Notes under the pieces: generated by a model
What the model was told of the DNA's origin: nothing
The model's input: the letters and a program-made list of their open reading frames with translations, nothing else
Database searches by the model: none
Assembly (NCBI GenBank): GCA_032433765.1
Contig: JAVIAB010000073.1
Span: forward strand, 71,251,959 to 71,315,958
Direction: 5' to 3'
From: Megaustenia siamemsis
Lineage: Eukaryota > Mollusca > Gastropoda > Stylommatophora > Ariophantidae
Length of the DNA: 64,000 bases
Shown: positions 5,345 to 59,642 of the stretch, piece by piece
Layout: each line of letters begins with the position of its first letter
How positions within the stretch are numbered: position 1 is the first letter of the stretch
Program-made: the position numbers and the translations under genes

Positions 5345-5350
5345 TTATTG

Positions 5351-5408
<58 letters not shown>

Positions 5409-43850: not shown

Positions 43851-43856
43851 TTTTGT
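43851..43856. other. Target site duplication, left copy (TTTTGT)
   Basis: TTTTGT immediately precedes AGTAGTTAATCC. The same six bases occur at 59642-59647, right after AACTAC. If the element is taken as fully symmetric (ending AACTACT), the duplication is 5 bp (TTTGT). Polintons are known for 6-bp duplications. Confidence 0.85.
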
Positions 43857-44139
43857 AGTAGTTAATCCGGTATGAAAATGATACCACCCCCCTGATCTCA
43901 CCATCCCTGAAGCAAATAAAAACCCCAGTCCCCTCGAGTTTGGGGTGGACCTAAAATCTACCTTTTTTCGATCGTTTTGATATCGGATGGTGTCCAGAAA
44001 CCACTACCCCCTGATCTCAACATCCCTGAAGCAAATTAAGTTTGGGTTACCAAACTCGAGGGGGGCTGGGGGGTTTTAATTTGCTTCAGGGATGGTGAGC
44101 TCAGGGGGGTAGTATCATTTTCATACCGGATTAACTACT
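43857..44139. repeat. Left terminal foldback repeat (283 bp)
   Basis: Starts AGTAGTTAATCCGGTATGAA and ends TTCATACCGGATTAACTACT, so it is itself an imperfect inverted repeat of about 85 bp per side. A ~30-bp motif (CATCCCTGAAGCAAAT) occurs three times: plus near 43902 and 44020, minus near 44090. Runs of C and G and CTCGAG are prominent. It matches 59359-59642 in inverted orientation. It probably includes the element's replication/integration end. Confidence 0.88.
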
Positions 44140-44182
44140 CAGGAAAAAACAGTTAGAGAGTGTAGCTCTATAGATATATGAT

Positions 44183-44461
44183 ATGGCGCCAGGCAAAAAT
44201 CATTGTGCGTGGCTAGTGTGGGGATCTACTACAACCTGTGGGAAGACGTGCAGGGGTTCGTACTGCTGGATTCATAATGATAGAATACGGAAAGGTGGTG
44301 GAACAACACCATGTATTGGCTGCGGCGTGGGCGTCTCAAACAAGCTTAGTCTCTGTGTAAGATGTGGGTACCATAACGCACACACCAGAGAAAGCAAGGC
44401 ACGCACGAGAGCCTTTCACAAGGAGTTTACACGCCTAGCGCGGATCGAAATTTCCTATTAG
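44183..44461 (+). CDS. Small Cys-rich putative zinc-binding protein (92 aa), left arm
   Basis: First gene inside the terminus, 33 bp upstream of the polymerase and in the same direction. It contains CGKTCRGSYCWIH, TTPCIGCGVGVSNK and LCVRCGYH: paired cysteines (CxxxC, CxxC, CxxC) plus histidines, enough for one or two zinc sites. The C-terminus is basic with many Arg and Lys. No catalytic motif. A DNA-binding or regulatory role is a guess. The identical copy on the right arm, kept open, supports it as a real gene. I do not recognise the family. Confidence 0.75.
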   Translation: MAPGKNHCAWLVWGSTTTCGKTCRGSYCWIHNDRIRKGGGTTPCIGCGVGVSNKLSLCVRCGYHNAHTRESKARTRAFHKEFTRLARIEISY

Positions 44462-44494
44462 AGAAATGAGGGCTAATGGCTATAGACATACAAC

Positions 44495-47400
44495 ATGCCT
44501 ACTGTTAAGCAGTTGCGAATAGAAGCAAAGAGTTACGGGTTAGAAGGCTACTCAAAAATGCGGAAACCTGAATTGACACAATTAATCACAGAGGCCCGAC
44601 AACAAGTCCAACGTGAGCGCATAGCTCGTGGAGTAAAAAGTGGAAACTTAACTAGACGATACCCTGCCATGTTTAGTCTTAACTATGATGATCCTCAGAG
44701 ACCGGAAAAGCTGCGTCATGAACTAAAGATGTTTGATGATGAGATAACTGCTACATTGCGAGCTCGTAAATATGAGCAAGCTGTCAAGAAAAATCCAAAA
44801 CTTCGACTGCCAGCTCTGAGAAAGTGGATCGCAAGAATGAGCTTGCAATGGAAAGCCCGGCAGGTCTTAGGGCCCCTTCATCGCGGAGGAGAGCCCCCGG
44901 CTCGCAAGATCGCAAGGGAGGGTGAGAGAATACTTCAGGAGCTCATCCCGATAGACGGGGAATCGCGAGGAAGACGGGTCATCATCTGGAAATTCTTCCG
45001 AGGTCTATCGAGGTTCGTTGAAAATGGTAACACCCCTGTCGATCGTGTGATGGAGAGGGTAGCTGAACTGCAGACAGCTTTCTATCTCAGATATAGCTAC
45101 ACAATTCAGATCCGTCACATCGAGACTGGTAAAATCATACTTTTCCACCCAAATGAACTTGGCAGTCGACGTGGCAGTAACCTATTGACCACACAGGCCG
45201 CAGCTCGTCAGTGGTTAGAGGAACAGGAAGAAAAGCGTTTTGAGAATGAAAAGAAGCCCAATACAAAATGGATTTTCCTACGTTGGGTACAGGTCGAGAT
45301 CAAGGCTATTCTGACCAATGAACTGCTGGTAGGAAACGGTCGATTACCAGACTGGCTGCGAAACAAGAAAGGGCTCGTTGCGCTGGACGGCTACAACGAT
45401 AATTTCTGTTTCTTCCGGTGCCTAGCTGTTCATCGAGGATCCAGATCAGACCGTTGTACTGAGAAAGCGCACGAACTAGCCAGATCTTTCTTTGGGGCAA
45501 ATGTTGACCTTACTAAAACACCAAAGCTACCGTTCGCAGACTTTAAATTGGCCGAGGAGCATTTTCGTCTGGGCATACGAGTTAACCTGCCGAGTGAGGA
45601 TGGCATCTGGAGGCTTATAAGACAACCGGCACACTATTCTGAAATAGGCATCGAACCAATAACGCTTTCTATCTACAACGAACATGCTTCGCTGATCACG
45701 GACATCAAGAAACTAACCAACACCTATGCTTGCGGACACTGTAATCAGCGGTGCACGCAGTCAACTAGCCTGCAGCGACACGTCACTCGTTGTCAAAAGG
45801 GGGAAACCGAAGTCATTTGTAAGGGTGAGAAAGTGATACGCCCCCAATCTGCCTATGAAAAAGCCTTCGATCCTAAGTCAAGTGCCAGTCTCGCCTCGAT
45901 ACAGTGGATCGAGCACGAAGCACAAGCCCGAGGGTTACACATTCACCATGCTCACTGTGGTCACGGTGGGGAGCGGGAGATCGCAGGTGCTCCTGTAGAC
46001 GGGTATGAGCCAATCACGAGGACAGTGTTTCAATTCCACGGTTGTTATTTCCACGGATGCCCTGTCCACTGTAAGCAGGACGAAACTAGAAAAATAATCA
46101 AAAAGACACGACAGGGAATAAAGGAGGAGGCCGTCTATGTTCGAGATATACTCAAGAAGACCCGTCAGCAAGAACGAAAAATCGTAAACGCTGGGTACAA
46201 CTTGGTGGTCGTGTGGGAATGTCGAAAGCCTCCGCGTTTAAATATCCCAATGCCTGCAGAAAGAACTGTTACATATCAACATTTTATCTTTTATGACTTC
46301 GAAGCTTTACTCGACAAAACGCAGAGAAATGAACCCACCCTCGACCTCACATATGAAAACGAACACACACCGATCTCAGTGTCGATAGGGGATACTCTAG
46401 ACCGTCAACCAACACATATTTGTGACGCCGACCCAAAAGCTTTGACAAACAAATTCAGGCTAGAACTCCAGCGCCGAGCTGCAATCTTAAGGGCTGAGGT
46501 CGAGACCCAGTTTCTACCAGACGACATCACTTTACTGTCTCAGAAGCAACAAAATAAGATACGAGATTGGTGCTCGCAGGTCCCGGTATTAGGTTTCAAC
46601 TCGGGCAAATACGATCTGAACCTCATCAAGCAATACTTTGTAGAAGAGCTCGCCGACACCTGTAAAAAAGTCTTTGTAGCTAGTAAAGGCACAAAAATAA
46701 TGTTCCTAGTAACACCCGAGTTCAAATTCTTGGATATCATCAACTATTTAGGCCCTGGTGCCTCCTACGACAACTGGATCAAAGCCTACGGGTGTCAGCA
46801 GACAAAGTCGTGGTTCCCATACGAATGGTTTGACAGTCCGGATAAACTTGCGTATCCAGGCCTTCCAGACTACCCTGCATGGTTCTCTCGGTTGAAAAAT
46901 GCGTACCCCCTGTCTAAGACAGAATGGGGTGACTGTCAATGTATCTTCAGAGAGAAAGGAATGACAACTTTCGCAGATTGGCTACGTTACTACAACGACC
47001 TCGACGTAGGTCCTGGCATTGAAGCGGCTGAGAAGATGAGAACCTACTACGGCGAAAAAGGCATCGATATATTTAAAGACGCTGTTTCACTGCCAGGGGT
47101 GTCCCTACAGTATCTATTAAGGGGTACACCAGAAGGGTCCTTCTATGCTCCAGGTAAAAAGGCATACACGTATTTGAAAGCTGCAGTAACTGGAGGTCCC
47201 TCGATAGTCTTCACCCGTTATCACGAAGCGGGGGTCACACGAATCCGCTCGCATCAAAATCCTAAAGCAAAACGCTGTAAGCGGGCAGTTGGATATGACG
47301 CAAACGCCCTATATCTTTCTACAATGCTTCAGGACATGCCAGCTGGTAAAGAGAAGGTAATCGAGCTTAAAGAGCCTGAGGTTGATGCGCCCAGGGTACG

Positions 47401-48544
47401 TGATCTAGTCTTAAGCGGTCGATTGTTTGGTTTCGTCAGGTGCAAGCTTTCCGTACCGCGAACACTATGGAAGAAATTCGAGGAAATGCCACCGATATTT
47501 ATAAACCGTGAAGTTCCAGAAGCTGCCGTGCCTCAAGAAATGAAGGATTATTTGAAGCAGACAGATCGAAAACGTTCTTCCACAAAGAAACTGCTGGGTG
47601 TCCTTGAGGCCGATGACATTCTGGTATACACACCGCTGCTAAAGTGGTACTTGCAGCATGGACTAGAGCTCCAAGCCGTTTATACAATAATTCACTATAA
47701 GCCAGAAAAATGCTTGGCTTGGTTCGTCAAGGAAGTCACTGAGGCACGCCGACTGGGTGATGTTGACAAAGAGAAGGCACTCCTAGCCGAAATACACAAA
47801 CTGATAGGAAACTCAAGCTACGGAAAACTAATCGAAGCCTTGGAGCGACACACCAAAGTCTGCTACACAAAAGACGAGGAAACCGTGGACCGTGCACTAC
47901 GTTCAGCCTGGTTCGATGATCTCACCGAAATAGGTGATGCCTACGAAATAAAAAGCCGCAAGCCTCGGGTATGTATATACAGACCATTCCAAGTCGGAAT
48001 CGCGGTGTATCAGTTGGCAAAACTTCGCATACTTGAATTCTATTACGACTTCCTGGATCGGTTCGTCGACCGTCAAGACTTTGAGCTCATTCAAATGGAC
48101 ACCGATTCACTATACTTCGCTCTGAGCACCACCACACTAGAGGCTGCAGTTCGGCCAGAGCTCAAAGAAGAGTTTGCTAAGTGCAAAAAAGACTGGCTTT
48201 CTTGGGATACCTGGAGCGGCCGAACTCCGGGCCTGTTCAAGCTCGAATTCTCAGGGCATCGAGCTATTGCTCTGTGCTCGAAATGTTATTTCGTCGATGG
48301 TAAGAAAAAGAGCAAACACTCGTGTAAGGGGATGTCGGCGAGGCTTAATAACCTGACATGGGAACGGTACAAGTTGGCTCTCTACGGTTTCAAAGACCGT
48401 GCTGTGAACCGCGGCTTTCGTATGCATAACGGGCAGATGACCACCTACCACCAAGAAAAGCTCGGGCTCAGTGCATACTACGACAAGCGACGGGTCTTGC
48501 CTGATGGGATCCACACGGAACCCATTGAGTACACCGCTGCCTAG
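44495..48544 (+). CDS. Protein-primed family B DNA polymerase (pPolB), left arm, 1349 aa
   Basis: Copies the element's linear DNA from a protein primer. N-terminus: a SAP-like helix pair (1-33; GLEGYSKMRKPEL); an OTU-like block at 298-313 (DGYNDNFCFFRCLAVH); a C2HC finger with C413, C416, H429 and C433; FHGCYFHGC at 514-522, typical of Polinton polymerases. Exonuclease: D601 and E603 (YDFEALL), N702 and D707 (FNSGKYD), Y833 and D837 (YNDLDV). Polymerase: motif A D935 (GYDANALYL), motif B K1102-G1110 (KLIGNSSYG), motif C D1202 and D1204 (DTDS). All catalytic residues are present. It ends in TAG at 48542-48544, sharing CTAG with the convergent neighbour. It differs from the right-arm copy at residues 364 (N/Y), 986 (S/A) and 1209 (A/V). 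Confidence 0.96.
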   Translation: MPTVKQLRIEAKSYGLEGYSKMRKPELTQLITEARQQVQRERIARGVKSGNLTRRYPAMFSLNYDDPQRPEKLRHELKMFDDEITATLRARKYEQAVKKNPKLRLPALRKWIARMSLQWKARQVLGPLHRGGEPPARKIAREGERILQELIPIDGESRGRRVIIWKFFRGLSRFVENGNTPVDRVMERVAELQTAFYLRYSYTIQIRHIETGKIILFHPNELGSRRGSNLLTTQAAARQWLEEQEEKRFENEKKPNTKWIFLRWVQVEIKAILTNELLVGNGRLPDWLRNKKGLVALDGYNDNFCFFRCLAVHRGSRSDRCTEKAHELARSFFGANVDLTKTPKLPFADFKLAEEHFRLGIRVNLPSEDGIWRLIRQPAHYSEIGIEPITLSIYNEHASLITDIKKLTNTYACGHCNQRCTQSTSLQRHVTRCQKGETEVICKGEKVIRPQSAYEKAFDPKSSASLASIQWIEHEAQARGLHIHHAHCGHGGEREIAGAPVDGYEPITRTVFQFHGCYFHGCPVHCKQDETRKIIKKTRQGIKEEAVYVRDILKKTRQQERKIVNAGYNLVVVWECRKPPRLNIPMPAERTVTYQHFIFYDFEALLDKTQRNEPTLDLTYENEHTPISVSIGDTLDRQPTHICDADPKALTNKFRLELQRRAAILRAEVETQFLPDDITLLSQKQQNKIRDWCSQVPVLGFNSGKYDLNLIKQYFVEELADTCKKVFVASKGTKIMFLVTPEFKFLDIINYLGPGASYDNWIKAYGCQQTKSWFPYEWFDSPDKLAYPGLPDYPAWFSRLKNAYPLSKTEWGDCQCIFREKGMTTFADWLRYYNDLDVGPGIEAAEKMRTYYGEKGIDIFKDAVSLPGVSLQYLLRGTPEGSFYAPGKKAYTYLKAAVTGGPSIVFTRYHEAGVTRIRSHQNPKAKRCKRAVGYDANALYLSTMLQDMPAGKEKVIELKEPEVDAPRVRDLVLSGRLFGFVRCKLSVPRTLWKKFEEMPPIFINREVPEAAVPQEMKDYLKQTDRKRSSTKKLLGVLEADDILVYTPLLKWYLQHGLELQAVYTIIHYKPEKCLAWFVKEVTEARRLGDVDKEKALLAEIHKLIGNSSYGKLIEALERHTKVCYTKDEETVDRALRSAWFDDLTEIGDAYEIKSRKPRVCIYRPFQVGIAVYQLAKLRILEFYYDFLDRFVDRQDFELIQMDTDSLYFALSTTTLEAAVRPELKEEFAKCKKDWLSWDTWSGRTPGLFKLEFSGHRAIALCSKCYFVDGKKKSKHSCKGMSARLNNLTWERYKLALYGFKDRAVNRGFRMHNGQMTTYHQEKLGLSAYYDKRRVLPDGIHTEPIEYTAA

Positions 48545-49212
48545 TCAGTAGCGTATATATGCTTACCTTGGAACACTATAACATCCCCCACGCCGTCTCT
48601 CTCGAGATCCCTTTCACGTATACCCGTAAATGTATAATCTTGGGGACTAGAGGCGAGAACTATACTCTGAATGACCACCCAAAAGCGCATGTTTGAGGTA
48701 CCAATTTTAACGACGTCCCCCTGCGACAAGCCCATAAGGGCCTCGTTAGTCGGAGGTGGTGAACCGGGGCACTGTTGATGCTGAGCTTGATGCTGAGCTT
48801 CTACTAGGACTAAAGGCATAGATGGATTATCATGACGCGCCATGGGTTCAAATGATTGAGAGTATTCGTCCTCTGGACGGGTAAAAGCCTCGCGCAGCGC
48901 CTCCGGACGGGTAAAAGCCTCGCGCAGCGAAGGGTATATATCATATACATGCATGCCTCGAAAATCTATAACGTCCCCGAGACGAGCACTAGAACTTACT
49001 AAGTTATTATCAAGCACACCAGTTAATCTAATATCAGAAGCATTCCAGTCCTGTGGGTACTCTACAGTTTGAATCACTACCCAAAATCGCTCCTCCCCAT
49101 TACAAACTTTTACGATGTCCCCTGATTTCAATCGCTGAAGCTCTTCATCGGGTGGGGCCCAAAATGTGCCTGGGTGTCGACGATGCATTTCTTGGGCATC
49201 TATTAGGAACAT
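48541..49212 (-). CDS. Two-domain DUF2314-like protein with tandem mini-repeats (223 aa), left arm
   Basis: Two related ~60-residue domains: 28-92 (GDIVKVCNGEERFWVVI, ending GDVIDFRGMHVYD) and 161-223 (GDVVKIGTSNMRFWVVI, ending GDVIVFQGKHIYATD). The GDxVK, RFWV(V)I and GDxIxF signature resembles DUF2314-type small beta domains; this is by eye. Between them, residues 95-114 come from two tandem 30-bp mini-repeats (SLREAFTRPE, ALREAFTRPE), then a Gln/His-rich linker. It is convergent with the polymerase (stops overlap by 4 bp) and lies 42 bp downstream of the integrase in the same direction. Function unknown. Confidence 0.82.
   Translation of the reverse strand: MFLIDAQEMHRRHPGTFWAPPDEELQRLKSGDIVKVCNGEERFWVVIQTVEYPQDWNASDIRLTGVLDNNLVSSSARLGDVIDFRGMHVYDIYPSLREAFTRPEALREAFTRPEDEYSQSFEPMARHDNPSMPLVLVEAQHQAQHQQCPGSPPPTNEALMGLSQGDVVKIGTSNMRFWVVIQSIVLASSPQDYTFTGIRERDLERDGVGDVIVFQGKHIYATD
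48870..48899 (-). repeat. 30-bp mini-repeat, copy 1 (in the 223-aa gene)
   Basis: Minus-strand GCGCGAGGCTTTTACCCGTC core, with one base differing from the consensus (CCAGAGG end instead of CCGGAGG). It encodes ALREAFTRPE and is in exact tandem with copy 2. Confidence 0.93.
48900..48929 (-). repeat. 30-bp mini-repeat, copy 2 (in the 223-aa gene)
   Basis: Consensus sequence, encoding SLREAFTRPE. Tandem with copy 1 at exactly 30-bp spacing. Confidence 0.95.
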
Positions 49213-49254
49213 TGTTTCTGATGACGCCGTTAGATTACATGAGTCTCCTTGGGT

Positions 49255-50319
49255 TCAATTGATTGCAAGAATCTTACCTGGAGGAAGCTCTGTCCCCTCA
49301 GGAACAAGCATCAACTCTTCACGCACAAACCCACGCTGTGGACCATCTTCCAAATAGTACACAGCAGGCTGGCCATTCTGCCGCAATACATTTCGGATCG
49401 AATGCAGGGTCACAGACCACACGGGGTCAGTAGCACGTTTTCGACCACCCTCGAGCTCGCCAGGCTGGTACAAATACCGAACCATTGCATCAGACGGGAT
49501 CAGCGGCTCCTCGAGCCCTACAGGGCGTCCTGGAACGACAGATGAGGGTTGCGCAGTCACTCTCTGAAGTTTAATGGCATCCACAGGCTTCTTACCTGTC
49601 AGCCGAGTCGGCTCATTGTTTAAAGCCGCAACAACCGCAGGGAGTCGAGCCACCCATTCTGCAGACCGCTCAGAAGACCCACGGGCAGCAAGCAATAGCT
49701 CCTGAGCATACTGGTGACCAAAAAGCCGCTCGGCCAGAGTCCGGTTAAAACGTTCTACTATACCTTGGTCTCTATGGAGGTCCACACGCCCACGCCGTAT
49801 TTCAGTCCCATGTTTTGCCATAAGTGTTGATACCGAGCCCATGAATTCTCTTCCCGGGTCGACCTGAAGAAGCTTTGGAAAAACTAGAGGGCCCCGTTTA
49901 TAAATCCTCTCAAGGGCGTCTGCAACCTCTTGTGAATCTTTTGTAGCCAAGGGCTCTGCCTCTTTGTACCGGGAGGCTATATCGACGAGGGTCAAGGCGT
50001 ATTTGTACGTGCGTCGTTTCACACGATCATGCGGCAGATATAATAAATCCCCTTGATGAACTTCGTTTGGCGCAGTCACGTTAAAATGTGGCCGTGGTAT
50101 TCGTCGAGGAGCAGGCAAATAGAGCTGCCATATGTCTTGTTTCGAGAGCCAGTCCCGAGCATCCTTTTTGCTAACTCGGGCTGCCGCAGCAAGCTTCGGG
50201 ATGGCCGCCAGCCCACGCCAATAGCCTTGAGGACTGTAGTAGAATTTCTCCATGATTGCTGACGTGCCGTCGGAGTCCTCCGGACGGGTAAAAGCCTCGC
50301 GCAGCGACTTCTCTGCCAT
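49255..50319 (-). CDS. Polinton integrase (rve family), left arm, 354 aa
   Basis: Joins element ends to host DNA. The N-terminal helical region has the Polinton pattern YYSPQGYWRGL (27-37), KKDARDWLSKQ. Catalytic triad: D91 (HQGDLLYLPHD), D154 (LQVDPGREFMG) and E189 (HRDQGIVERFNRTL), with 34 residues between the last two, as in retroviral-type integrases. The C-terminus (VWSVTLHSIRNVL, VYYLEDGPQRGFVREEL) looks like the SH3/chromo-type DNA-binding part. Residues 5-14 (SLREAFTRPE) come from a mini-repeat; Met23 is a plausible original start, but the upstream Met is in frame and kept in both arms. Identical in both arms. The next gene in the same direction starts 42 bp downstream. Confidence 0.96.
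   Translation of the reverse strand: MAEKSLREAFTRPEDSDGTSAIMEKFYYSPQGYWRGLAAIPKLAAAARVSKKDARDWLSKQDIWQLYLPAPRRIPRPHFNVTAPNEVHQGDLLYLPHDRVKRRTYKYALTLVDIASRYKEAEPLATKDSQEVADALERIYKRGPLVFPKLLQVDPGREFMGSVSTLMAKHGTEIRRGRVDLHRDQGIVERFNRTLAERLFGHQYAQELLLAARGSSERSAEWVARLPAVVAALNNEPTRLTGKKPVDAIKLQRVTAQPSSVVPGRPVGLEEPLIPSDAMVRYLYQPGELEGGRKRATDPVWSVTLHSIRNVLRQNGQPAVYYLEDGPQRGFVREELMLVPEGTELPPGKILAIN
50277..50306 (-). repeat. 30-bp mini-repeat, copy 3 (N-terminus of integrase)
   Basis: Consensus copy encoding SLREAFTRPE. The right flank (in coding sense) ACTCCGACGGCACGT matches the flank of copy 5, so those two share a longer unit. Confidence 0.95.
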
Positions 50320-50351
50320 AGAAAACTTCTTCAGTTTAGGAATATTTTCTA

Positions 50352-50924
50352 CTACCTCCTTCGCGACTTTTTTTTAAGGCCCATCCCGAAGCGTGATTTC
50401 GCAGCCATAATCGCAGAAACCGTCTTAGCATCACGCTTTTCCCAGTCTGGAGCATCTGATAGTGCAATCTGCGATGCGGTAGCTGCCAGTACATCATCCG
50501 CATGATTCCGTCCGGGGGTATCTTTATGGGCTGCGTAGGCAACGTCGTGGTTTAGACAGGCACGATCAAGACTATTCACACCCCTATAGCCCTGAGAGAG
50601 GCGTTTGGCAATCTTGGTAAACGGCCCGCAATATGAGTATTTTCCAGTGTTTTGAAAAGTTCCACCCGGGACATCTTCAGATGGGACCCCTTTGGGGAGA
50701 CGCATATGCATCTCGGGCAGAGGTAGGGCATTCATGGCACTGTTAAGAAGACCAGCACCTTCGCTGCGCGAGGCTTTTACCCGTCCGGAGGACGCAGGGA
50801 GAATTTGGCTCTTTCTAGCACCGCACACCGTGCAAACACCTCTCTTAGCTGGTCGGTTGTTCTTTAGAGTTATAGTCTCCTCATTTAAAGTGGGAGTGTG
50901 TTGTTTACAGCGAAGGCAGTACAT
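50352..50924 (-). CDS. Zinc ribbon-phospholipase A2 fusion (190 aa), left arm
   Basis: Residues 1-40 form a zinc ribbon (C3, C6, C31, C34: MYCLRCKQHT ... VCTVCGARK) like DUF5679. A linker follows, containing an antisense mini-repeat (SSGRVKASRSE, 45-55). Residues 96-150 are a parvovirus-type PLA2: YCGPF calcium-loop motif (98-102), DRACLNHDVAYAAH with the catalytic H126-D127 pair, and HADD at 141-144. The C-terminus is basic (LKKKSRRR). In parvoviruses this enzyme breaches the endosome during entry; a similar role in a virus-like Polinton is inference. It starts 20 bp from the divergent ATPase gene. It is intact here, while the right-arm copy is frameshifted. Confidence 0.88.
   Translation of the reverse strand: MYCLRCKQHTPTLNEETITLKNNRPAKRGVCTVCGARKSQILPASSGRVKASRSEGAGLLNSAMNALPLPEMHMRLPKGVPSEDVPGGTFQNTGKYSYCGPFTKIAKRLSQGYRGVNSLDRACLNHDVAYAAHKDTPGRNHADDVLAATASQIALSDAPDWEKRDAKTVSAIMAAKSRFGMGLKKKSRRR
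50762..50791 (+). repeat. 30-bp mini-repeat, copy 4 (antisense in the PLA2 gene)
   Basis: Lies in the opposite orientation to its host gene, so it is read as SSGRVKASRSE. The flank AGCACCTT before it matches the flank of copy 5. Confidence 0.95.
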
Positions 50925-50944
50925 CTCTCCCTAAATATAGAAGT
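50925..50944. promoter_or_regulatory. Short divergent intergenic gap, PLA2 and ATPase genes
   Basis: Only 20 bp separate the two divergent start codons (CTCCCTAAATATAGAAGT). It contains TAAATATA, a possible TATA-like element, but promoters for one or both genes may reach into the coding sequence. The same gap is at 52555-52574. Confidence 0.4.
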
Positions 50945-51709
50945 ATGGAAATCTTAAATTTAGATCTTGATGAATCGAATCCACACGAGCCACAACATAA
51001 TTGGCTGCTTCCTAGTAGCATCCGTTGTGTAATCTGCGGCCCCTCCGGGTGTGGGAAGACTAACCTGATGCTTAATCTCCTCCTAAGAAAGGGTTTCCTT
51101 AAATACCATAGACTGCATATATACTCAAAATCCCTTAGACAAGAGAAATACCAGTGGCTGCAGGACTGGGCGGATGCCATTAAAGCAGTCACTGGGAAAG
51201 AGGTAGCCTCGTTTCACAGCATATCAGATGATATCATCCCAGTAGAGAGTCTGAACAAAAACGAACGTAGCATTATGGTATTTGATGACGTTATGTTGGA
51301 AAAACAAACCCCCATCGAGAAATACTTCAGCCAAGGCCGTCACGGTGGTGCGGACTCATTCTATCTAACGCAGAATTATTTCAGGATTCCCAAACAAACG
51401 ATTCGAGATAATTGTAACATGCTTATCATATTTAATCAAGACACGAAAAACTTGCGCGCCATACATGACACCTATGTTTGTGGTGACATGCCTTTCGAAG
51501 AATTTCGAAACTTCTTTAGTGCGTGCACGTCAAGCCACGTGCCGTCGGTGTCCTCCGGACGGGTAAAAGCCTCGCGCAGCGAAGGTGCTGGCAAGCGCTC
51601 TATTGCGGCTGTGACTTTTCCTATCTCCGCTGCTTGGTGTGAGGTGATTGGTTTGAAAAGTTTGGCTGCCTCTTCCTGCAGAGACGACTCCCCTAGTGTT
51701 TCTGTTTGA
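50945..51709 (+). pseudogene. Packaging ATPase, left arm, C-terminus replaced at the palindrome junction
   Basis: Residues 1-195 equal the right-arm ATPase: Walker A GPSGCGKT (32-39), Walker B IMVFDD (110-115), and YLTQNYFRIPKQTIRDN with the expected Arg residues. At 51529/51530 the sequence leaves the arm. The frame then continues for 59 codons in antisense of another gene, including a mini-repeat read as SSGRVKASRSEG, before a stop. The native tail is lost, so this is a chimera made by the rearrangement. It may still bind ATP, but I treat it as broken. Confidence 0.88.
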
Positions 51710-51774
51710 AGGCGTTGCCGAGCCTGGTCCCTGAGTGCTAGGTAGTTCCGGACGAGGGCTGTACGATCGCGCAT
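51530..51774 (-). pseudogene. 5' stump of an unidentified Polinton gene, cut by the palindrome junction
   Basis: From ATG at 51774: MRDRTALVRNYLALRDQARQ, then SLQEEAAKLFKPITSHQAA, then a mini-repeat (SLREAFTRPE) and DTDGTWLD, about 81 codons before the junction. An in-frame ATG also exists at 51813. It lies downstream of the right-arm ATPase and in the same direction, as the next gene of the original element would. The predicted N-terminus is helical and charged. The family is unknown; a virion-associated protein is possible. Its 3' part is missing. Confidence 0.65.
51552..51581 (-). repeat. 30-bp mini-repeat, copy 5 (in the truncated gene)
   Basis: Consensus copy in sense, encoding SLREAFTRPE. 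Flanks match copy 4 on one side (AGCACCTT) and copy 3 on the other (ACACCGACGGCACGT), giving the longest unit, about 50 bp. It is in the spacer, so there is only one copy in the element. Confidence 0.95.
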
Positions 51775-51784
51775 GTCGGTTACT

Positions 51785-51866
51785 TTGCGCCACATCCTTA
51801 CTTCGCGCCACATCCTTACTTCAAATAGATGTCATCCCTACTTTAAATAGATTTCATCCCTACTTT
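51785..51866. repeat. Short tandem repeats before the truncated gene
   Basis: Two 18-bp units (CTTNGCGCCACATCCTTA) are followed by 22-bp units (CTTTAAATAGATNTCATCCC + TA) repeated about 2.5 times. They sit between the end of the right-arm ATPase and the start of the truncated gene. TTTAAATAG recurs as a TATA-like core, so a promoter is plausible. Confidence 0.8.
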
Positions 51867-52554
51867 AAATAGATGCCTTCGGTATGTAGAATCGATCAAA
51901 TCCGCATCGATACCGACCATCATAGGCCCGGCTGGTCAGATCGATACAACAGAACCCGTACGGCTCGCGCGTGCACGCACTAAAGAAGTTTCGAAATTCT
52001 TCGAAAGGCATGTCACCACACACATAGGTGTCATGTATGGCGCGCAAGTTTTTCGTGTCTTGATTAAATATGATAAGCATGTTACAATTATCTCGAATCG
52101 TTTGTTTGGGAATCCTGAAATAATTCTGCGTTAGATAGAATGAGTCCGCACCACCGTGACGGCCTTGGCTGAAGTATTTCTCGATGGGGGTTTGTTTTTC
52201 CAACATAACGTCATCAAATACCATAATGCTACGTTCGTTTTTGTTCAGACTCTCTACTGGGATGATATCATCTGATATGCTGTGAAACGAGGCTACCTCT
52301 TTCCCAGTGACTGCTTTAATGGCATCCGCCCAGTCCTGCAGCCACTGGTATTTCTCTTGTCTAAGGGATTTTGAGTATATATGCAGTCTATGGTATTTAA
52401 GGAAACCCTTTCTTAGGAGGAGATTAAGCATCAGGTTAGTCTTCCCACACCCGGAGGGGCCGCAGATTACACAACGGATGCTACTAGGAAGCAGCCAATT
52501 ATGTTGTGGCTCGTGTGGATTCGATTCATCAAGATCTAAATTTAAGATTTCCAT
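51865..52554 (-). CDS. A32/FtsK-like genome-packaging ATPase, right arm, complete (229 aa)
   Basis: Would pump element DNA into a capsid. Walker A GPSGCGKT (32-39), Walker B IMVFDD (110-115; D114, D115), then DSFYLTQNYFRIPKQTIRDN, the motif that follows Walker B in Polinton and poxvirus A32-type ATPases. After the shared first 195 residues it has its own tail: REPYGFCCIDL, then RCGFDRFYIPKASI. This length is normal for the family. It starts 20 bp from the divergent zinc ribbon-PLA2 copy. Of the two ATPase copies, this is the unbroken one, and its sequence runs on into the spacer. The right arm plus spacer is therefore the collinear ancestral segment. Confidence 0.93.
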   Translation of the reverse strand: MEILNLDLDESNPHEPQHNWLLPSSIRCVICGPSGCGKTNLMLNLLLRKGFLKYHRLHIYSKSLRQEKYQWLQDWADAIKAVTGKEVASFHSISDDIIPVESLNKNERSIMVFDDVMLEKQTPIEKYFSQGRHGGADSFYLTQNYFRIPKQTIRDNCNMLIIFNQDTKNLRAIHDTYVCGDMPFEEFRNFFSACTREPYGFCCIDLTSRAYDGRYRCGFDRFYIPKASI

Positions 52555-52574
52555 ACTTCTATATTTAGGGAGAG

Positions 52575-53146
52575 ATGTACTGCCTTCGCTGTAAACAACA
52601 CACTCCCACTTTAAATGAGGAGACTATAACTCTAAAGAACAACCGACCAGCTAAGAGAGGTGTTTGCACGGTGTGCGGTGCTAGAAAGAGCCAAATTCTC
52701 CCTGCGTCCTCCGGACGGGTAAAAGCCTCGCGCAGCGAAGGTGCTGGTCTTCTTAACAGTGCCATGAATGCCCTACCTCTGCCCGAGATGCATATGCGTC
52801 TCCCAAAGGGGTCCCATCTGAAGATGTCCCGGGTGGAACTTTTCAAAACACTGGAAAATACTCATATTGCGGGTCGTTTACCAAGATTGCCAAACGCCTC
52901 TCTCAGGGCTATAGGGGTGTGAATAGTCTTGATCGTGCCTGTCTAAACCACGACGTTGCCTACGCAGCCCATAAAGATACCCCCGGACGGAATCATGCGG
53001 ATGATGTACTGGCAGCTACCGCATCGCAGATTGCACTATCAGATGCTCCAGACTGGGAAAAGCGTGATGCTAAGACGGTTTCTGCGATTATGGCTGCGAA
53101 ATCACGCTTCGGGATGGGCCTTAAAAAAAAGTCGCGAAGGAGGTAG
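52575..53146 (+). pseudogene. Zinc ribbon-PLA2 gene, right arm, frameshifted
   Basis: Same gene as 50352-50924. One C is missing in the run at about 52803 (CTCCCAAAGG against CTCCCCAAAGG in the left arm), shifting the frame after residue ~78. Out-of-frame residues then run to a stop at 52922. The catalytic half (NSLDRACLNHDVAYAAH) is open again from 52919 but in another frame. The zinc ribbon half is intact. With one good copy on the left arm, the element still encodes the enzyme. Confidence 0.9.
52708..52737 (-). repeat. 30-bp mini-repeat, copy 6 (right-arm partner of copy 4)
   Basis: Identical consensus, antisense to its host gene. Confidence 0.95.
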
Positions 53147-53178
53147 TAGAAAATATTCCTAAACTGAAGAAGTTTTCT

Positions 53179-54243
53179 ATGGCAGAGAAGTCGCTGCGCG
53201 AGGCTTTTACCCGTCCGGAGGACTCCGACGGCACGTCAGCAATCATGGAGAAATTCTACTACAGTCCTCAAGGCTATTGGCGTGGGCTGGCGGCCATCCC
53301 GAAGCTTGCTGCGGCAGCCCGAGTTAGCAAAAAGGATGCTCGGGACTGGCTCTCGAAACAAGACATATGGCAGCTCTATTTGCCTGCTCCTCGACGAATA
53401 CCACGGCCACATTTTAACGTGACTGCGCCAAACGAAGTTCATCAAGGGGATTTATTATATCTGCCGCATGATCGTGTGAAACGACGCACGTACAAATACG
53501 CCTTGACCCTCGTCGATATAGCCTCCCGGTACAAAGAGGCAGAGCCCTTGGCTACAAAAGATTCACAAGAGGTTGCAGACGCCCTTGAGAGGATTTATAA
53601 ACGGGGCCCTCTAGTTTTTCCAAAGCTTCTTCAGGTCGACCCGGGAAGAGAATTCATGGGCTCGGTATCAACACTTATGGCAAAACATGGGACTGAAATA
53701 CGGCGTGGGCGTGTGGACCTCCATAGAGACCAAGGTATAGTAGAACGTTTTAACCGGACTCTGGCCGAGCGGCTTTTTGGTCACCAGTATGCTCAGGAGC
53801 TATTGCTTGCTGCCCGTGGGTCTTCTGAGCGGTCTGCAGAATGGGTGGCTCGACTCCCTGCGGTTGTTGCGGCTTTAAACAATGAGCCGACTCGGCTGAC
53901 AGGTAAGAAGCCTGTGGATGCCATTAAACTTCAGAGAGTGACTGCGCAACCCTCATCTGTCGTTCCAGGACGCCCTGTAGGGCTCGAGGAGCCGCTGATC
54001 CCGTCTGATGCAATGGTTCGGTATTTGTACCAGCCTGGCGAGCTCGAGGGTGGTCGAAAACGTGCTACTGACCCCGTGTGGTCTGTGACCCTGCATTCGA
54101 TCCGAAATGTATTGCGGCAGAATGGCCAGCCTGCTGTGTACTATTTGGAAGATGGTCCACAGCGTGGGTTTGTGCGTGAAGAGTTGATGCTTGTTCCTGA
54201 GGGGACAGAGCTTCCTCCAGGTAAGATTCTTGCAATCAATTGA
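53179..54243 (+). CDS. Polinton integrase, right arm, 354 aa
   Basis: Residue for residue the same as 49255-50319, with D91, D154 and E189 intact. The preceding ORF ends 32 bp upstream and the 223-aa gene starts 42 bp downstream, as in the left arm. Two identical integrase genes mean either a very recent origin of the palindrome or conversion between arms. Confidence 0.96.
   Translation: MAEKSLREAFTRPEDSDGTSAIMEKFYYSPQGYWRGLAAIPKLAAAARVSKKDARDWLSKQDIWQLYLPAPRRIPRPHFNVTAPNEVHQGDLLYLPHDRVKRRTYKYALTLVDIASRYKEAEPLATKDSQEVADALERIYKRGPLVFPKLLQVDPGREFMGSVSTLMAKHGTEIRRGRVDLHRDQGIVERFNRTLAERLFGHQYAQELLLAARGSSERSAEWVARLPAVVAALNNEPTRLTGKKPVDAIKLQRVTAQPSSVVPGRPVGLEEPLIPSDAMVRYLYQPGELEGGRKRATDPVWSVTLHSIRNVLRQNGQPAVYYLEDGPQRGFVREELMLVPEGTELPPGKILAIN
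53192..53221 (+). repeat. 30-bp mini-repeat, copy 7 (right-arm partner of copy 3)
   Basis: Identical consensus at integrase residues 5-14. Confidence 0.95.
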
Positions 54244-54285
54244 ACCCAAGGAGACTCATGTAATCTAACGGCGTCATCAGAAACA

Positions 54286-54957
54286 ATGTTCCTAATAGAT
54301 GCCCAAGAAATGCATCGTCGACACCCAGGCACATTTTGGGCCCCACCCGATGAAGAGCTTCAGCGATTGAAATCAGGGGACATCGTAAAAGTTTGTAATG
54401 GGGAGGAGCGATTTTGGGTAGTGATTCAAACTGTAGAGTACCCACAGGACTGGAATGCTTCTGATATTAGATTAACTGGTGTGCTTGATAATAACTTAGT
54501 AAGTTCTAGTGCTCGTCTCGGGGACGTTATAGATTTTCGAGGCATGCATGTATATGATATATACCCTTCGCTGCGCGAGGCTTTTACCCGTCCGGAGGCG
54601 CTGCGCGAGGCTTTTACCCGTCCGGAGGACGAATACTCTCAATCATTTGAACCCATGGCGCGTCATGATAATCCATCTATGCCTTTAGTCCTAGTAGAAG
54701 CTCAGCATCAAGCTCAGCATCAACAGTGCCCCGGTTCACCACCTCCGACTAACGAGGCCCTTATGGGCTTGTCGCAGGGGGACGTCGTTAAAATTGGTAC
54801 CTCAAACATGCGCTTTTGGGTGGTCATTCAGAGTATAGTTCTCGCCTCTAGTCCCCAAGATTATACATTTACGGGTATACGTGAAAGGGATCTCGAGAGA
54901 GACGGCGTGGGGGATGTTATAGTGTTCCAAGGTAAGCATATATACGCTACTGACTAG
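54286..54957 (+). CDS. Two-domain DUF2314-like protein (223 aa), right arm
   Basis: Same protein as 48541-49212, both domains and both mini-repeats intact. It ends within the CTAG shared with the convergent polymerase stop (54954-54957). The only nucleotide difference I noticed is the silent one in a mini-repeat (position 48875 on the left). Confidence 0.82.
   Translation: MFLIDAQEMHRRHPGTFWAPPDEELQRLKSGDIVKVCNGEERFWVVIQTVEYPQDWNASDIRLTGVLDNNLVSSSARLGDVIDFRGMHVYDIYPSLREAFTRPEALREAFTRPEDEYSQSFEPMARHDNPSMPLVLVEAQHQAQHQQCPGSPPPTNEALMGLSQGDVVKIGTSNMRFWVVIQSIVLASSPQDYTFTGIRERDLERDGVGDVIVFQGKHIYATD
54569..54598 (+). repeat. 30-bp mini-repeat, copy 8 (right-arm partner of copy 2)
   Basis: Consensus, first of the tandem pair in coding order. 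Confidence 0.95.
54599..54628 (+). repeat. 30-bp mini-repeat, copy 9 (right-arm partner of copy 1)
   Basis: Consensus here; the left-arm partner carries one silent change. Confidence 0.95.
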
Positions 54958-57900
54958 GCAGCGGTGTACTCAATGGGTTCCGTGTGGATCCCATCAGGCA
55001 AGACCCGTCGCTTGTCGTAGTATGCACTGAGCCCGAGCTTTTCTTGGTGGTAGGTGGTCATCTGCCCGTTATGCATACGAAAGCCGCGGTTCACAGCACG
55101 GTCTTTGAAACCGTAGAGAGCCAACTTGTACCGTTCCCATGTCAGGTTATTAAGCCTCGCCGACATCCCCTTACACGAGTGTTTGCTCTTTTTCTTACCA
55201 TCGACGAAATAACATTTCGAGCACAGAGCAATAGCTCGATGCCCTGAGAATTCGAGCTTGAACAGGCCCGGAGTTCGGCCGCTCCAGGTATCCCAAGAAA
55301 GCCAGTCTTTTTTGCACTTAGCAAACTCTTCTTTGAGCTCTGGCCGAACTGCAGCCTCTAGTGTGGTGGTGCTCAGAACGAAGTATAGTGAATCGGTGTC
55401 CATTTGAATGAGCTCAAAGTCTTGACGGTCGACGAACCGATCCAGGAAGTCGTAATAGAATTCAAGTATGCGAAGTTTTGCCAACTGATACACCGCGATT
55501 CCGACTTGGAATGGTCTGTATATACATACCCGAGGCTTGCGGCTTTTTATTTCGTAGGCATCACCTATTTCGGTGAGATCATCGAACCAGGCTGAACGTA
55601 GTGCACGGTCCACGGTTTCCTCGTCTTTTGTGTAGCAGACTTTGGTGTGTCGCTCCAAGGCTTCGATTAGTTTTCCGTAGCTTGAGTTTCCTATCAGTTT
55701 GTGTATTTCGGCTAGGAGTGCCTTCTCTTTGTCAACATCACCCAGTCGGCGTGCCTCAGTGACTTCCTTGACGAACCAAGCCAAGCATTTTTCTGGCTTA
55801 TAGTGAATTATTGTATAAACGGCTTGGAGCTCTAGTCCATGCTGCAAGTACCACTTTAGCAGCGGTGTGTATACCAGAATGTCATCGGCCTCAAGGACAC
55901 CCAGCAGTTTCTTTGTGGAAGAACGTTTTCGATCTGTCTGCTTCAAATAATCCTTCATTTCTTGAGGCACGGCAGCTTCTGGAACTTCACGGTTTATAAA
56001 TATCGGTGGCATTTCCTCGAATTTCTTCCATAGTGTTCGCGGTACGGCAAGCTTGCACCTGACGAAACCAAACAATCGACCGCTTAAGACTAGATCACGT
56101 ACCCTGGGCGCATCAACCTCAGGCTCTTTAAGCTCGATTACCTTCTCTTTACCAGCTGGCATGTCCTGAAGCATTGTAGAAAGATATAGGGCGTTTGCGT
56201 CATATCCAACTGCCCGCTTACAGCGTTTTGCTTTAGGATTTTGATGCGAGCGGATTCGTGTGACCCCCGCTTCGTGATAACGGGTGAAGACTATCGAGGG
56301 ACCTCCAGTTACTGCAGCTTTCAAATACGTGTATGCCTTTTTACCTGGAGCATAGAAGGACCCTTCTGGTGTACCCCTTAATAGATACTGTAGGGACACC
56401 CCTGGCAGTGAAACAGCGTCTTTAAATATATCGATGCCTTTTTCGCCGTAGTAGGTTCTCATCTTCTCAGCCGCTTCAATGCCAGGACCTACGTCGAGGT
56501 CGTTGTAGTAACGTAGCCAATCTGCGAAAGTTGTCATTCCTTTCTCTCTGAAGATACATTGACAGTCACCCCATTCTGTCTTAGACAGGGGGTACGCATT
56601 TTTCAACCGAGAGAACCATGCAGGGTAGTCTGGAAGGCCTGGATACGCAAGTTTATCCGGACTGTCAAACCATTCGTATGGGAACCACGACTTTGTCTGC
56701 TGACACCCGTAGGCTTTGATCCAGTTGTCGTAGGAGGCACCAGGGCCTAAATAGTTGATGATATCCAAGAATTTGAACTCGGGTGTTACTAGGAACATTA
56801 TTTTTGTGCCTTTACTAGCTACAAAGACTTTTTTACAGGTGTCGGCGAGCTCTTCTACAAAGTATTGCTTGATGAGGTTCAGATCGTATTTGCCCGAGTT
56901 GAAACCTAATACCGGGACCTGCGAGCACCAATCTCGTATCTTATTTTGTTGCTTCTGAGACAGTAAAGTGATGTCGTCTGGTAGAAACTGGGTCTCGACC
57001 TCAGCCCTTAAGATTGCAGCTCGGCGCTGGAGTTCTAGCCTGAATTTGTTTGTCAAAGCTTTTGGGTCGGCGTCACAAATATGTGTTGGTTGACGGTCTA
57101 GAGTATCCCCTATCGACACTGAGATCGGTGTGTGTTCGTTTTCATATGTGAGGTCGAGGGTGGGTTCATTTCTCTGCGTTTTGTCGAGTAAAGCTTCGAA
57201 GTCATAAAAGATAAAATGTTGATATGTAACAGTTCTTTCTGCAGGCATTGGGATATTTAAACGCGGAGGCTTTCGACATTCCCACACGACCACCAAGTTG
57301 TACCCAGCGTTTACGATTTTTCGTTCTTGCTGACGGGTCTTCTTGAGTATATCTCGAACATAGACGGCCTCCTCCTTTATTCCCTGTCGTGTCTTTTTGA
57401 TTATTTTTCTAGTTTCGTCCTGCTTACAGTGGACAGGGCATCCGTGGAAATAACAACCGTGGAATTGAAACACTGTCCTCGTGATTGGCTCATACCCGTC
57501 TACAGGAGCACCTGCGATCTCCCGCTCCCCACCGTGACCACAGTGAGCATGGTGAATGTGTAACCCTCGGGCTTGTGCTTCGTGCTCGATCCACTGTATC
57601 GAGGCGAGACTGGCACTTGACTTAGGATCGAAGGCTTTTTCATAGGCAGATTGGGGGCGTATCACTTTCTCACCCTTACAAATGACTTCGGTTTCCCCCT
57701 TTTGACAACGAGTGACGTGTCGCTGCAGGCTAGTTGACTGCGTGCACCGCTGATTACAGTGTCCGCAAGCATAGGTGTTGGTTAGTTTCTTGATGTCCGT
57801 GATCAGCGAAGCATGTTCGTTGTAGATAGAAAGCGTTATTGGTTCGATGCCTATTTCAGAATAGTGTGCCGGTTGTCTTATAAGCCTCCAGATGCCATCC

Positions 57901-59003
57901 TCACTCGGCAGGTAAACTCGTATGCCCAGACGAAAATGCTCCTCGGCCAATTTAAAGTCTGCGAACGGTAGCTTTGGTGTTTTAGTAAGGTCAACATTTG
58001 CCCCAAAGAAAGATCTGGCTAGTTCGTGCGCTTTCTCAGTACAACGGTCTGATCTGGATCCTCGATGAACAGCTAGGCACCGGAAGAAACAGAAATTATC
58101 GTTGTAGCCGTCCAGCGCAACGAGCCCTTTCTTGTTTCGCAGCCAGTCTGGTAATCGACCGTTTCCTACCAGCAGTTCATTGGTCAGAATAGCCTTGATC
58201 TCGACCTGTACCCAACGTAGGAAAATCCATTTTGTATTGGGCTTCTTTTCATTCTCAAAACGCTTTTCTTCCTGTTCCTCTAACCACTGACGAGCTGCGG
58301 CCTGTGTGGTCAATAGGTTACTGCCACGTCGACTGCCAAGTTCATTTGGGTGGAAAAGTATGATTTTACCAGTCTCGATGTGACGGATCTGAATTGTGTA
58401 GCTATATCTGAGATAGAAAGCTGTCTGCAGTTCAGCTACCCTCTCCATCACACGATCGACAGGGGTGTTACCATTTTCAACGAACCTCGATAGACCTCGG
58501 AAGAATTTCCAGATGATGACCCGTCTTCCTCGCGATTCCCCGTCTATCGGGATGAGCTCCTGAAGTATTCTCTCACCCTCCCTTGCGATCTTGCGAGCCG
58601 GGGGCTCTCCTCCGCGATGAAGGGGCCCTAAGACCTGCCGGGCTTTCCATTGCAAGCTCATTCTTGCGATCCACTTTCTCAGAGCTGGCAGTCGAAGTTT
58701 TGGATTTTTCTTGACAGCTTGCTCATATTTACGAGCTCGCAATGTAGCAGTTATCTCATCATCAAACATCTTTAGTTCATGACGCAGCTTTTCCGGTCTC
58801 TGAGGATCATCATAGTTAAGACTAAACATGGCAGGGTATCGTCTAGTTAAGTTTCCACTTTTTACTCCACGAGCTATGCGCTCACGTTGGACTTGTTGTC
58901 GGGCCTCTGTGATTAATTGTGTCAATTCAGGTTTCCGCATTTTTGAGTAGCCTTCTAACCCGTAACTCTTTGCTTCTATTCGCAACTGCTTAACAGTAGG
59001 CAT
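54954..59003 (-). CDS. Protein-primed family B DNA polymerase, right arm, 1349 aa
   Basis: Same architecture and catalytic residues as the left-arm copy (exonuclease D601/E603, N702/D707, D837; polymerase D935, K1102, D1202/D1204). Three amino-acid differences are seen: Y364, A986 and V1209. None falls on a catalytic residue, though 1209 is close after DTDS. Both copies are fully open over 4 kb, so the palindrome is young or under selection. Confidence 0.96.
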   Translation of the reverse strand: MPTVKQLRIEAKSYGLEGYSKMRKPELTQLITEARQQVQRERIARGVKSGNLTRRYPAMFSLNYDDPQRPEKLRHELKMFDDEITATLRARKYEQAVKKNPKLRLPALRKWIARMSLQWKARQVLGPLHRGGEPPARKIAREGERILQELIPIDGESRGRRVIIWKFFRGLSRFVENGNTPVDRVMERVAELQTAFYLRYSYTIQIRHIETGKIILFHPNELGSRRGSNLLTTQAAARQWLEEQEEKRFENEKKPNTKWIFLRWVQVEIKAILTNELLVGNGRLPDWLRNKKGLVALDGYNDNFCFFRCLAVHRGSRSDRCTEKAHELARSFFGANVDLTKTPKLPFADFKLAEEHFRLGIRVYLPSEDGIWRLIRQPAHYSEIGIEPITLSIYNEHASLITDIKKLTNTYACGHCNQRCTQSTSLQRHVTRCQKGETEVICKGEKVIRPQSAYEKAFDPKSSASLASIQWIEHEAQARGLHIHHAHCGHGGEREIAGAPVDGYEPITRTVFQFHGCYFHGCPVHCKQDETRKIIKKTRQGIKEEAVYVRDILKKTRQQERKIVNAGYNLVVVWECRKPPRLNIPMPAERTVTYQHFIFYDFEALLDKTQRNEPTLDLTYENEHTPISVSIGDTLDRQPTHICDADPKALTNKFRLELQRRAAILRAEVETQFLPDDITLLSQKQQNKIRDWCSQVPVLGFNSGKYDLNLIKQYFVEELADTCKKVFVASKGTKIMFLVTPEFKFLDIINYLGPGASYDNWIKAYGCQQTKSWFPYEWFDSPDKLAYPGLPDYPAWFSRLKNAYPLSKTEWGDCQCIFREKGMTTFADWLRYYNDLDVGPGIEAAEKMRTYYGEKGIDIFKDAVSLPGVSLQYLLRGTPEGSFYAPGKKAYTYLKAAVTGGPSIVFTRYHEAGVTRIRSHQNPKAKRCKRAVGYDANALYLSTMLQDMPAGKEKVIELKEPEVDAPRVRDLVLSGRLFGFVRCKLAVPRTLWKKFEEMPPIFINREVPEAAVPQEMKDYLKQTDRKRSSTKKLLGVLEADDILVYTPLLKWYLQHGLELQAVYTIIHYKPEKCLAWFVKEVTEARRLGDVDKEKALLAEIHKLIGNSSYGKLIEALERHTKVCYTKDEETVDRALRSAWFDDLTEIGDAYEIKSRKPRVCIYRPFQVGIAVYQLAKLRILEFYYDFLDRFVDRQDFELIQMDTDSLYFVLSTTTLEAAVRPELKEEFAKCKKDWLSWDTWSGRTPGLFKLEFSGHRAIALCSKCYFVDGKKKSKHSCKGMSARLNNLTWERYKLALYGFKDRAVNRGFRMHNGQMTTYHQEKLGLSAYYDKRRVLPDGIHTEPIEYTAA

Positions 59004-59036
59004 GTTGTATGTCTATAGCCATTAGCCCTCATTTCT

Positions 59037-59315
59037 CTAATAGGAAATTTCGATCCGCGCTAGGCGTGTAAACTCCTTGTGAAAGGCTCTCGTGCGTGCC
59101 TTGCTTTCTCTGGTGTGTGCGTTATGGTACCCACATCTTACACAGAGACTAAGCTTGTTTGAGACGCCCACGCCGCAGCCAATACATGGTGTTGTTCCAC
59201 CACCTTTCCGTATTCTATCATTATGAATCCAGCAGTACGAACCCCTGCACGTCTTCCCACAGGTTGTAGTAGATCCCCACACTAGCCACGCACAATGATT
59301 TTTGCCTGGCGCCAT
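59037..59315 (-). CDS. Small Cys-rich putative zinc-binding protein (92 aa), right arm
   Basis: Identical to 44183-44461: cysteine pairs in CGKTCRGSYCWIH, PCIGCG and CVRCG. 33 bp upstream of the polymerase start. Confidence 0.75.
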   Translation of the reverse strand: MAPGKNHCAWLVWGSTTTCGKTCRGSYCWIHNDRIRKGGGTTPCIGCGVGVSNKLSLCVRCGYHNAHTRESKARTRAFHKEFTRLARIEISY

Positions 59316-59358
59316 ATCATATATCTATAGAGCTACACTCTCTAACTGTTTTTTCCTG

Positions 59359-59642
59359 AGTAGTTAATCCGGTATGAAAATGATACTACCCCCCTGAGCT
59401 CACCATCCCTGAAGCAAATTAAAACCCCCCAGCCCCCCTCGAGTTTGGTAACCCAAACTTAATTTGCTTCAGGGATGTTGAGATCAGGGGGTAGTGGTTT
59501 CTGGACACCATCCGATATCAAAACGATCGAAAAAAGGTAGATTTTAGGTCCACCCCAAACTCGAGGGGGCTGGGGGTTTTTATTTGCTTCAGGGATGGTG
59601 AGATCAGGGGGGTGGTATCATTTTCATACCGGATTAACTACT
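59359..59642. repeat. Right terminal foldback repeat
   Basis: Inverted match to 43857-44139, ending ATACCGGATTAACTACT. Compared with the left copy it has one extra C and a C/T difference near the C-rich run at 59571. Confidence 0.88.

Follow-up and report, generated by a model that had tools for sequence, protein, structure and literature searches.

The stretch analysed here, hereafter the window, comprises 64,000 nucleotides of Megaustenia siamemsis (GCA_032433765.1, contig JAVIAB010000073.1, forward-strand positions 71,251,959 to 71,315,958), taken from an assembly of 2.59 Gb in 155 contigs. Within the window lies a Polinton/Maverick element composed of two long arms in inverted orientation around a short single-copy centre (Table 1). 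The polymerase-side half of one molecule, extending from the terminus to just beyond the packaging-ATPase gene, is present twice in mirror image and replaces the capsid-side half, so that the polymerase-side terminus stands at both ends; which plan, a head-to-head duplication of one terminus-bearing half about an asymmetric turn, is that of a snapback genome. The palindromic copy is a one-off inverted-duplication derivative of an ordinary Polinton of ~17 kb.

An earlier sequence-only reading had described two inverted arms of 7,673 bp with a few substitutions and a pair of 1-bp indels between them, and a palindrome stopping exactly at AGTAGTT ends. We confirmed both observations: over the full arms we counted nine differences (seven substitutions and two one-base indels), and AGTAGTT/AACTACT mark the exact ends of the palindrome. 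Of the seven substitutions, six fall inside open reading frames (ORFs), four of them changing an amino acid and two being silent, and the seventh is non-coding. The element has a GC content of 48%, against 39% in the remainder of the window, with which it shares no 16-mer.

Genes of the two arms

The sequence-only reading had placed polymerase, integrase, PLA2-like, and ATPase genes in each arm. All of those genes are there, though not all intact: the joint interrupts the left ATPase gene, whose native part stops at that point while the frame runs on into the centre, and the right PLA2-like ORF is shortened by a frameshift. The family-B polymerase matched PF03175 (E 1.6e-13) and the integrase the rve domain PF00665 (E 2.2e-10), whose DD35E triad (D91, D154, and E189) was invariant in 18 aligned sequences, the last two residues lying 35 positions apart; the FtsK/A32-type packaging ATPase, complete in only the right copy, matched Pox_A32 (PF04665, E 7e-9). 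Among the ORFs of at least 100 amino acids between positions 43000 and 60600, none encoded a major capsid protein or an adenain-type protease. Since those two genes are present in an ordinary copy of the same genome (see below), the palindromic copy is a defective derivative of a Polinton/Maverick member and not a complete member. Adintoviruses are defined by an OTU-like domain in the polymerase and a chromodomain in the integrase (PMC11071296), and neither domain gave a Pfam match at E values up to 0.1.

The homologue searches yielded 3,444 matches among 7,995 scored candidates for the integrase and 114 among 176 for the ATPase, whereas none of the 10 candidates for the ORF at the junction matched. 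Against solved structures, the integrase profile gave no match and the polymerase a single one at chance level. In the viral contigs, the scans with proteins and alignments encountered some stretches fitting a pattern, none of which was confirmed, and the scans with DNA motifs found no match. The scan of genome contigs for relatives produced 32 pattern matches with one confirmed locus (L001), a 5.1-kb contig of a bacterial metagenome-assembled genome (JANQFH010000027.1) with a similar gene order, encoding a Polinton-like integrase, a polymerase, and a cysteine-rich ORF of the same kind; that contig is probably eukaryotic contamination of the bacterial genome.

Table 1. Position of the features of the palindromic element within the window.
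Feature	Position	Strand	Basis or remark
Target duplication, left side, TTTTGT	43851..43856	+	six bases outside left end
Whole palindromic element, 15,786 bp	43857..59642	.	termini AGTAGTT/AACTACT like ordinary copies
Left arm, 7,673 bp	43857..51529	+	inverted-arm comparison
Left terminal hairpin (fold-back) inside terminal inverted repeat	43857..44139	+	folding
Cysteine-rich 92-aa ORF beside terminal inverted repeat (read in left arm)	44183..44461	+	37% identity over 75 residues to same-place ORF in L001
DNA polymerase B, left copy, 1,349 aa	44495..48544	+	ORF and Pfam
223-aa ORF without assigned function, left copy	48541..49212	-	ORF
rve integrase, left copy	49255..50319	-	Pfam; D91, D154, E189
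DUF5679 and PLA2-like protein, left copy, 190 aa	50352..50924	-	ORF and Pfam
Packaging ATPase, left copy, cut by joint	50945..51529	+	ORF
Single-copy centre, 440 bp: end of right-arm ATPase gene, intergenic DNA, start of next gene, and joint	51530..51969	-	comparison with ordinary copies
7-bp filler TCAAGCC at joint	51530..51536	+	resembles inverted copy of adjacent sequence in ordinary copies
Start of gene after ATPase (152-aa ORF in ordinary copy L010), interrupted by joint	51537..51813	-	comparison with L010
Packaging ATPase (Pox_A32-like, 229 aa), right copy, complete	51865..52554	-	ORF and Pfam
Right arm, 7,673 bp, inverted copy of left arm	51970..59642	-	inverted-arm comparison
PLA2-like ORF, right copy, shortened by 1-bp frameshift (115 aa vs 190)	52575..52922	+	ORF
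rve integrase, right copy	53179..54243	+	ORF
223-aa ORF, right copy	54286..54957	+	ORF
DNA polymerase B, right copy, 1,349 aa	54954..59003	-	ORF
Right terminal hairpin	59359..59642	-	inverted-repeat comparison
Target duplication, right side, TTTGTT	59643..59648	+	six bases outside right end
Dispersed repeat copies	48873-48929, 50280-50306, 50762-50788, 51555-51581, and mirror copies

Ordinary copies of the family

A search of the genome for other palindromic or single-arm copies, as proposed by the sequence-only reading, returned many ordinary copies and, among those scored, no second palindromic one. Of 380 first-look candidates from a 2-kb terminal query, 40 were scored and checked by eye, and a 1-kb polymerase query gave 88, the 40 scored being the two arms plus 38 other places at 99–100% identity; at none of those 38 did inspection by eye detect an opposite-strand polymerase pair within 20 kb. 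We read six other copies in separate 10-kb stretches, five of them to both ends. All five had the terminus again, inverted, at a distance of 17.1–17.9 kb, along with terminal inverted repeats (TIRs) of ~660 bp—in the palindromic copy, the repeats are the whole arms—and perfect 6-bp target duplications (GATCGT, ACAGCA, TGCTTC, CACGTT, and ACCTTG); none of the five contained a second polymerase arm. In the sixth (L013, G000:C73:107597392-107607391), whose far end lies outside the stretch, the capsid half is colinear with the ordinary copies and carries ~3.4 kb of extra sequence at ~4690-8070.

Only one ordinary copy (L010/L011) was analysed at the level of single genes; after the ATPase it continues with ORFs of 152, 221, and 258 amino acids—the last with a weak DUF5901 match below the cut-off—and then with a double-jelly-roll capsid protein (PF21738, E 5.2e-58), an adenain-like protease (PF00770, E 9e-4, below the curated cut-off), and further ORFs. 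Because the capsid-side genes follow the ATPase in that copy, the arm corresponds to the polymerase-side half of a complete Polinton, and each arm is half of a normal Polinton rather than a different kind of Polinton. The family itself is ordinary, abundant, and recently active in this genome.

Identity of the arms and age of the insertion

We compared the right arm, as the reference, with the left arm and with other copies over four coding pieces totalling ~5.9 kb. The arms differed at 5 of 5,925 sites (0.08%), whereas seven other copies differed from the right arm at 60–90 of ~5,925 sites (1.0–1.5%), the arms thus being 12–18 times closer to each other than to those copies. An eighth copy (L061), the nearest in the 1-kb polymerase search, differed at 236 of 5,807 sites, 156 of them in the integrase; a ninth stretch (L040), in which just two of the four pieces could be compared (111 differences in 1,792 sites), was left out of the set. 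Judged over the whole unit, these values favour the interpretation that one molecule would have been copied onto itself. Individual copies combined pieces of unequal distance: L040 (G000:C123:67525000-67534999) and L061 (G000:C143:9885200-9892600) pair neighbouring genes of closer sequence with a divergent integrase (mismatches at 93 of 879 and at 156 of 881 sites, respectively), and L039 has a nearly identical ATPase/PLA2 piece but a more distant polymerase.

Within the TIR pairs of the ordinary copies we counted 0, 1, 3, 6, and 2 substitutions per 625–639 bp, and in the palindromic copy 1 per 639. The observed/expected ratio of CpG was 0.91 in the element, against 0.58 in the flanks, and 0.94 in the ordinary stretch L010. 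The high ratio relative to the flanks, together with an arm divergence within the range of the ordinary TIR pairs, suggests that the insertion is young.

Centre and joint

A centre query (51330-51960) found 624 candidates in the genome, from which 40 were scored, being the palindromic locus and 39 others. A match to the entire query was obtained at the palindromic locus and at none of the 39. The other copies matched from ~51537 (one from 51532, one from 51538, and three only from 51584), two of them stopping short of the query's end, at 51908 and 51956. In 38 of the 39 the ATPase part adjoins in the opposite orientation, as expected of an ordinary element; the remaining one, cut at 51908, shows none. 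To judge from where those matches begin and from that orientation, the single-copy centre is the natural continuation of the right arm, and the joint lies at 51530-51536.

The filler at the joint, TCAAGCC, is the exact inverse of the GGCTTGA that 2 of 13 ordinary copies have beside the joint point; 10 of the 13 have GGCTTGT, to which the filler matches at six of seven positions, and one has GGCATGT. A random 7-mer found its inverse within 20 bases of the joint point in 0.2% of trials, a figure obtained for an exact match in the test copy L012, and for the common allele the evidence is correspondingly weaker.

Ends, terminal hairpins, and target duplication

The outermost 283 bp of the element fold back on themselves with a DNA energy of -96.8 kcal/mol (z -17.4), a hairpin inside a Polinton TIR that is parvovirus-like. 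We compared that hairpin in 27 elements, the palindromic copy being represented by its right end together with 26 other copies. At positions 7-8 the two hairpin arms agreed in 25 of the 27 elements despite the existence of three states (13 TA, 8 TG, and 4 AT), whereas at position 29 the outer arm had C and the inner arm T in all 27. An automatic count over the first 67 columns of 23 elements, with the remaining four read separately, gave 19 changes common to both arms and 27 confined to each of the outer and inner arms—position 29 accounting for 23 of the inner-arm changes—though the elements share ancestry, so that these events are not independent. The ends of adeno-associated virus (AAV) flip; given the fixed difference between outer and inner arms at position 29, the Polinton hairpin does not. 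The conservation of terminal hairpins whose arms covary is also a hint that the family may normally use fold-back synthesis when it replicates.

Polintons duplicate 6 bp of target (PMC10045372). The sequence-only reading had reported TTTTGT on both sides of the palindrome; the left hexamer is indeed TTTTGT, but the right one is TTTGTT, with 5 bp (TTTGT) matching directly, and shuffled local flanks produced a 5-bp match of that type in 0.3% of trials. Since all five ordinary copies follow the 6-bp rule, the likelier inference is that the T run at the right end lost one T and that the duplication was originally 6 bp; alternatively, the duplication is the 5-bp TTTGT. The same reading had placed the palindrome in unrelated host DNA, which claim agrees with our comparison: the 4-kb left flank and the reverse complement of the 4-kb right flank had five 12-mers in common, a number given without a control count, and the two flanks look unrelated.

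Origin of the palindrome

The sequence-only reading had proposed that a head-to-head dimer of half an element was made before integration and was then inserted as a unit. The half-element duplication, the integrase-type ends, and the near target duplication all stand; the timing does not follow from them, since identical ends and flanks would result if an already integrated copy underwent gap repair with the inverted TIR as primer site.

We propose, with a probability of about one-half, that the palindrome is a snap-back defective genome that formed on a linear extrachromosomal Polinton and was then integrated. During strand-displacement synthesis by the element's own polymerase on such a genome, a strand end a few hundred bases beyond the left-arm breakpoint would have folded back or been captured onto the opposite strand, which step would leave the 440-base asymmetric loop and the 7-base templated filler; the product, having a replication terminus at both ends, would then have been completed and inserted by the integrase in the manner of an asymmetric snapback genome. 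The unit lies between unrelated-looking flanks with a near-perfect target duplication. In favour of the proposal are the closeness of the two arms, the centre that continues the right arm, a joint met at none of the other scored copies, the single-copy build of the five ordinary copies read to both ends, the CpG ratio, the likeness of the filler to an inverted copy of its surroundings, and the snapback genomes of AAV (PMC8235507). Through lack of the capsid and protease ORFs, the palindromic copy, with its two polymerase and two integrase ORFs, could at most spread with the help of ordinary copies.

Several points weigh against the snap-back proposal. The target duplication is not a perfect 6-mer, and in the assembly sequence, to which the work was confined, no extrachromosomal form was seen. 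That a single palindromic locus was found fits a rare repair accident as well. In appearance the filler suits end joining with fold-back synthesis (PMC11724301) no less than it does a clean snap-back priming. The TIR comparison gave no origin for the right terminus, both differences near the ends being private to the left one. Finally, piece by piece some copies match the right arm as closely as the left arm does: the ATPase/PLA2 piece of L039, with 2 differences in 912, equals the left arm, and the integrase piece of L010 and L016 has 1 in 1,001, against 0 for the other arm. The ordinary copies therefore look like mosaics, and another copy could be closer overall.

Among the alternatives, gap repair after integration is a possible though rather doubtful origin. 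An ordinary copy already at the site would have broken in its capsid half; the end on the side of the right flank would then have invaded the inverted left TIR, copied ~8.1 kb inward past the ATPase gene, and joined the broken left arm through the 7-bp filler. On such a course the flanks, the two termini, and the target duplication would all be preserved; the ~660-bp TIRs offer ample homology, a templated filler at one joint is what synthesis and subsequent end joining would produce (PMC11724301), and gap-filling with template switching is known in TIR transposons (PMC8277862). The process nevertheless requires a long synthesis tract from an inverted donor, and it has left no positive mark, the differences between the left and right TIRs being private to the left end. 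Nor was an allele with an ordinary copy found: the left-flank query, beyond its first ~170 bases, matched this locus only (40 scored of 4,349 candidates), which result, coming from one haplotype, is weak evidence.

Less probable is head-to-head end joining before integration, in which two polymerase-side halves broken ~440 bp apart were ligated and the product was then integrated. Although this route yields the same asymmetric centre, with a filler that suits end joining, the closeness of the arms to each other relative to the seven other copies means that the two halves must have been sisters of one parent. An assembly artefact, a chimeric or fold-back read built into the contig, is conceivable in that the element is known from the assembly alone, but is unlikely and the least credible explanation, because the two sides have different flanks, which carry the near duplication, the centre lacks symmetry and includes a filler, private differences occur in the arms, the contig is one of only 155, and all five of the other fully read copies were assembled as ordinary elements.

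Returning to the snap-back proposal, we would tentatively extend it to a wider hypothesis, to which we assign somewhat less than even odds: that the Polintons of this host replicate as linear episomes and shed capsid-less snapback half-genomes bearing the integrase and two replication ends, which products the integrase accepts and which become self-made chromosomal parasites of the full-length virus.

Relation to known systems

Defective adenovirus genomes with duplicated left ends resemble the palindromic copy in that a linear, protein-primed genome has one end duplicated in inverted orientation, and differ in lacking insertion by an integrase. The closest comparison within the genome is with the ordinary 17–18-kb Polinton/Maverick (adintovirus-like) copies, which have in common with it the termini, polymerase B, rve integrase, PLA2-like protein, and packaging ATPase, whereas in the palindromic copy the replication half is doubled, the capsid and protease ORFs are missing, and the target duplication is imperfect. 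Populations and particles of AAV contain both symmetric and asymmetric snapback genomes, the asymmetric ones consisting, like our element, of one end and half a genome arranged head-to-head, with the terminus at both ends and a single-stranded loop at the turn (PMC8235507); the virus group and the polymerase are different, and the Polinton form is known here only as an integrated copy. Derivatives of TIR DNA transposons that arose by gap repair likewise have an internal rearrangement between preserved ends and target duplication, but the cases described in the consulted part of PMC8277862 capture other DNA and include no long mirror duplication. A literature search over the titles and abstract beginnings of the papers listed found no palindromic Polinton described.

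If the palindrome was formed before integration, the locus would be the fossil of a Polinton replication intermediate and evidence that free linear genomes make defective fold-back forms; it would further imply that two proper ends suffice for a molecule to be accepted by the integrase, and would offer a testable locus for the origin of capsid-less transposons from integrated viruses. If formed after integration, it would clearly exemplify how repair primed from a TIR converts a virus-like element into a long palindrome in the chromosome.

Dispersed repeat and surrounding DNA

A dispersed repeat of ~27-54 bp, with the core CCGGACGGGTAAAAGCCTCGCGCAGCG, occurs at nine places in the window and, in either orientation, is read in frame as part of several ORFs (LREAFTRPED or SGRVKASRSEG); it is found also in a protease-like ORF of the ordinary copy L011. 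It was absent from all 234 homologous integrase and ATPase proteins among the matches listed, as well as from the viral contigs, and looks like a tiny insertion element of this Polinton family. The joint lies 7 bp from one of the copies, 1.7% of the unit being that close to an edge, although this test was chosen post hoc. As the cause of the turn we rejected the repeat, since pairing with an inverted partner predicts a turn near 53,237 and not at 51,970.

In the host DNA flanking the element we observed reverse-transcriptase ORFs and a DDE_3 transposase ORF, at 39697-40662 (-), 32998-33390 (+), 34077-34619 (+), and 41609-42478 (+), and elsewhere in the window a U1 snRNA match at 22091-22253 (148 bits).

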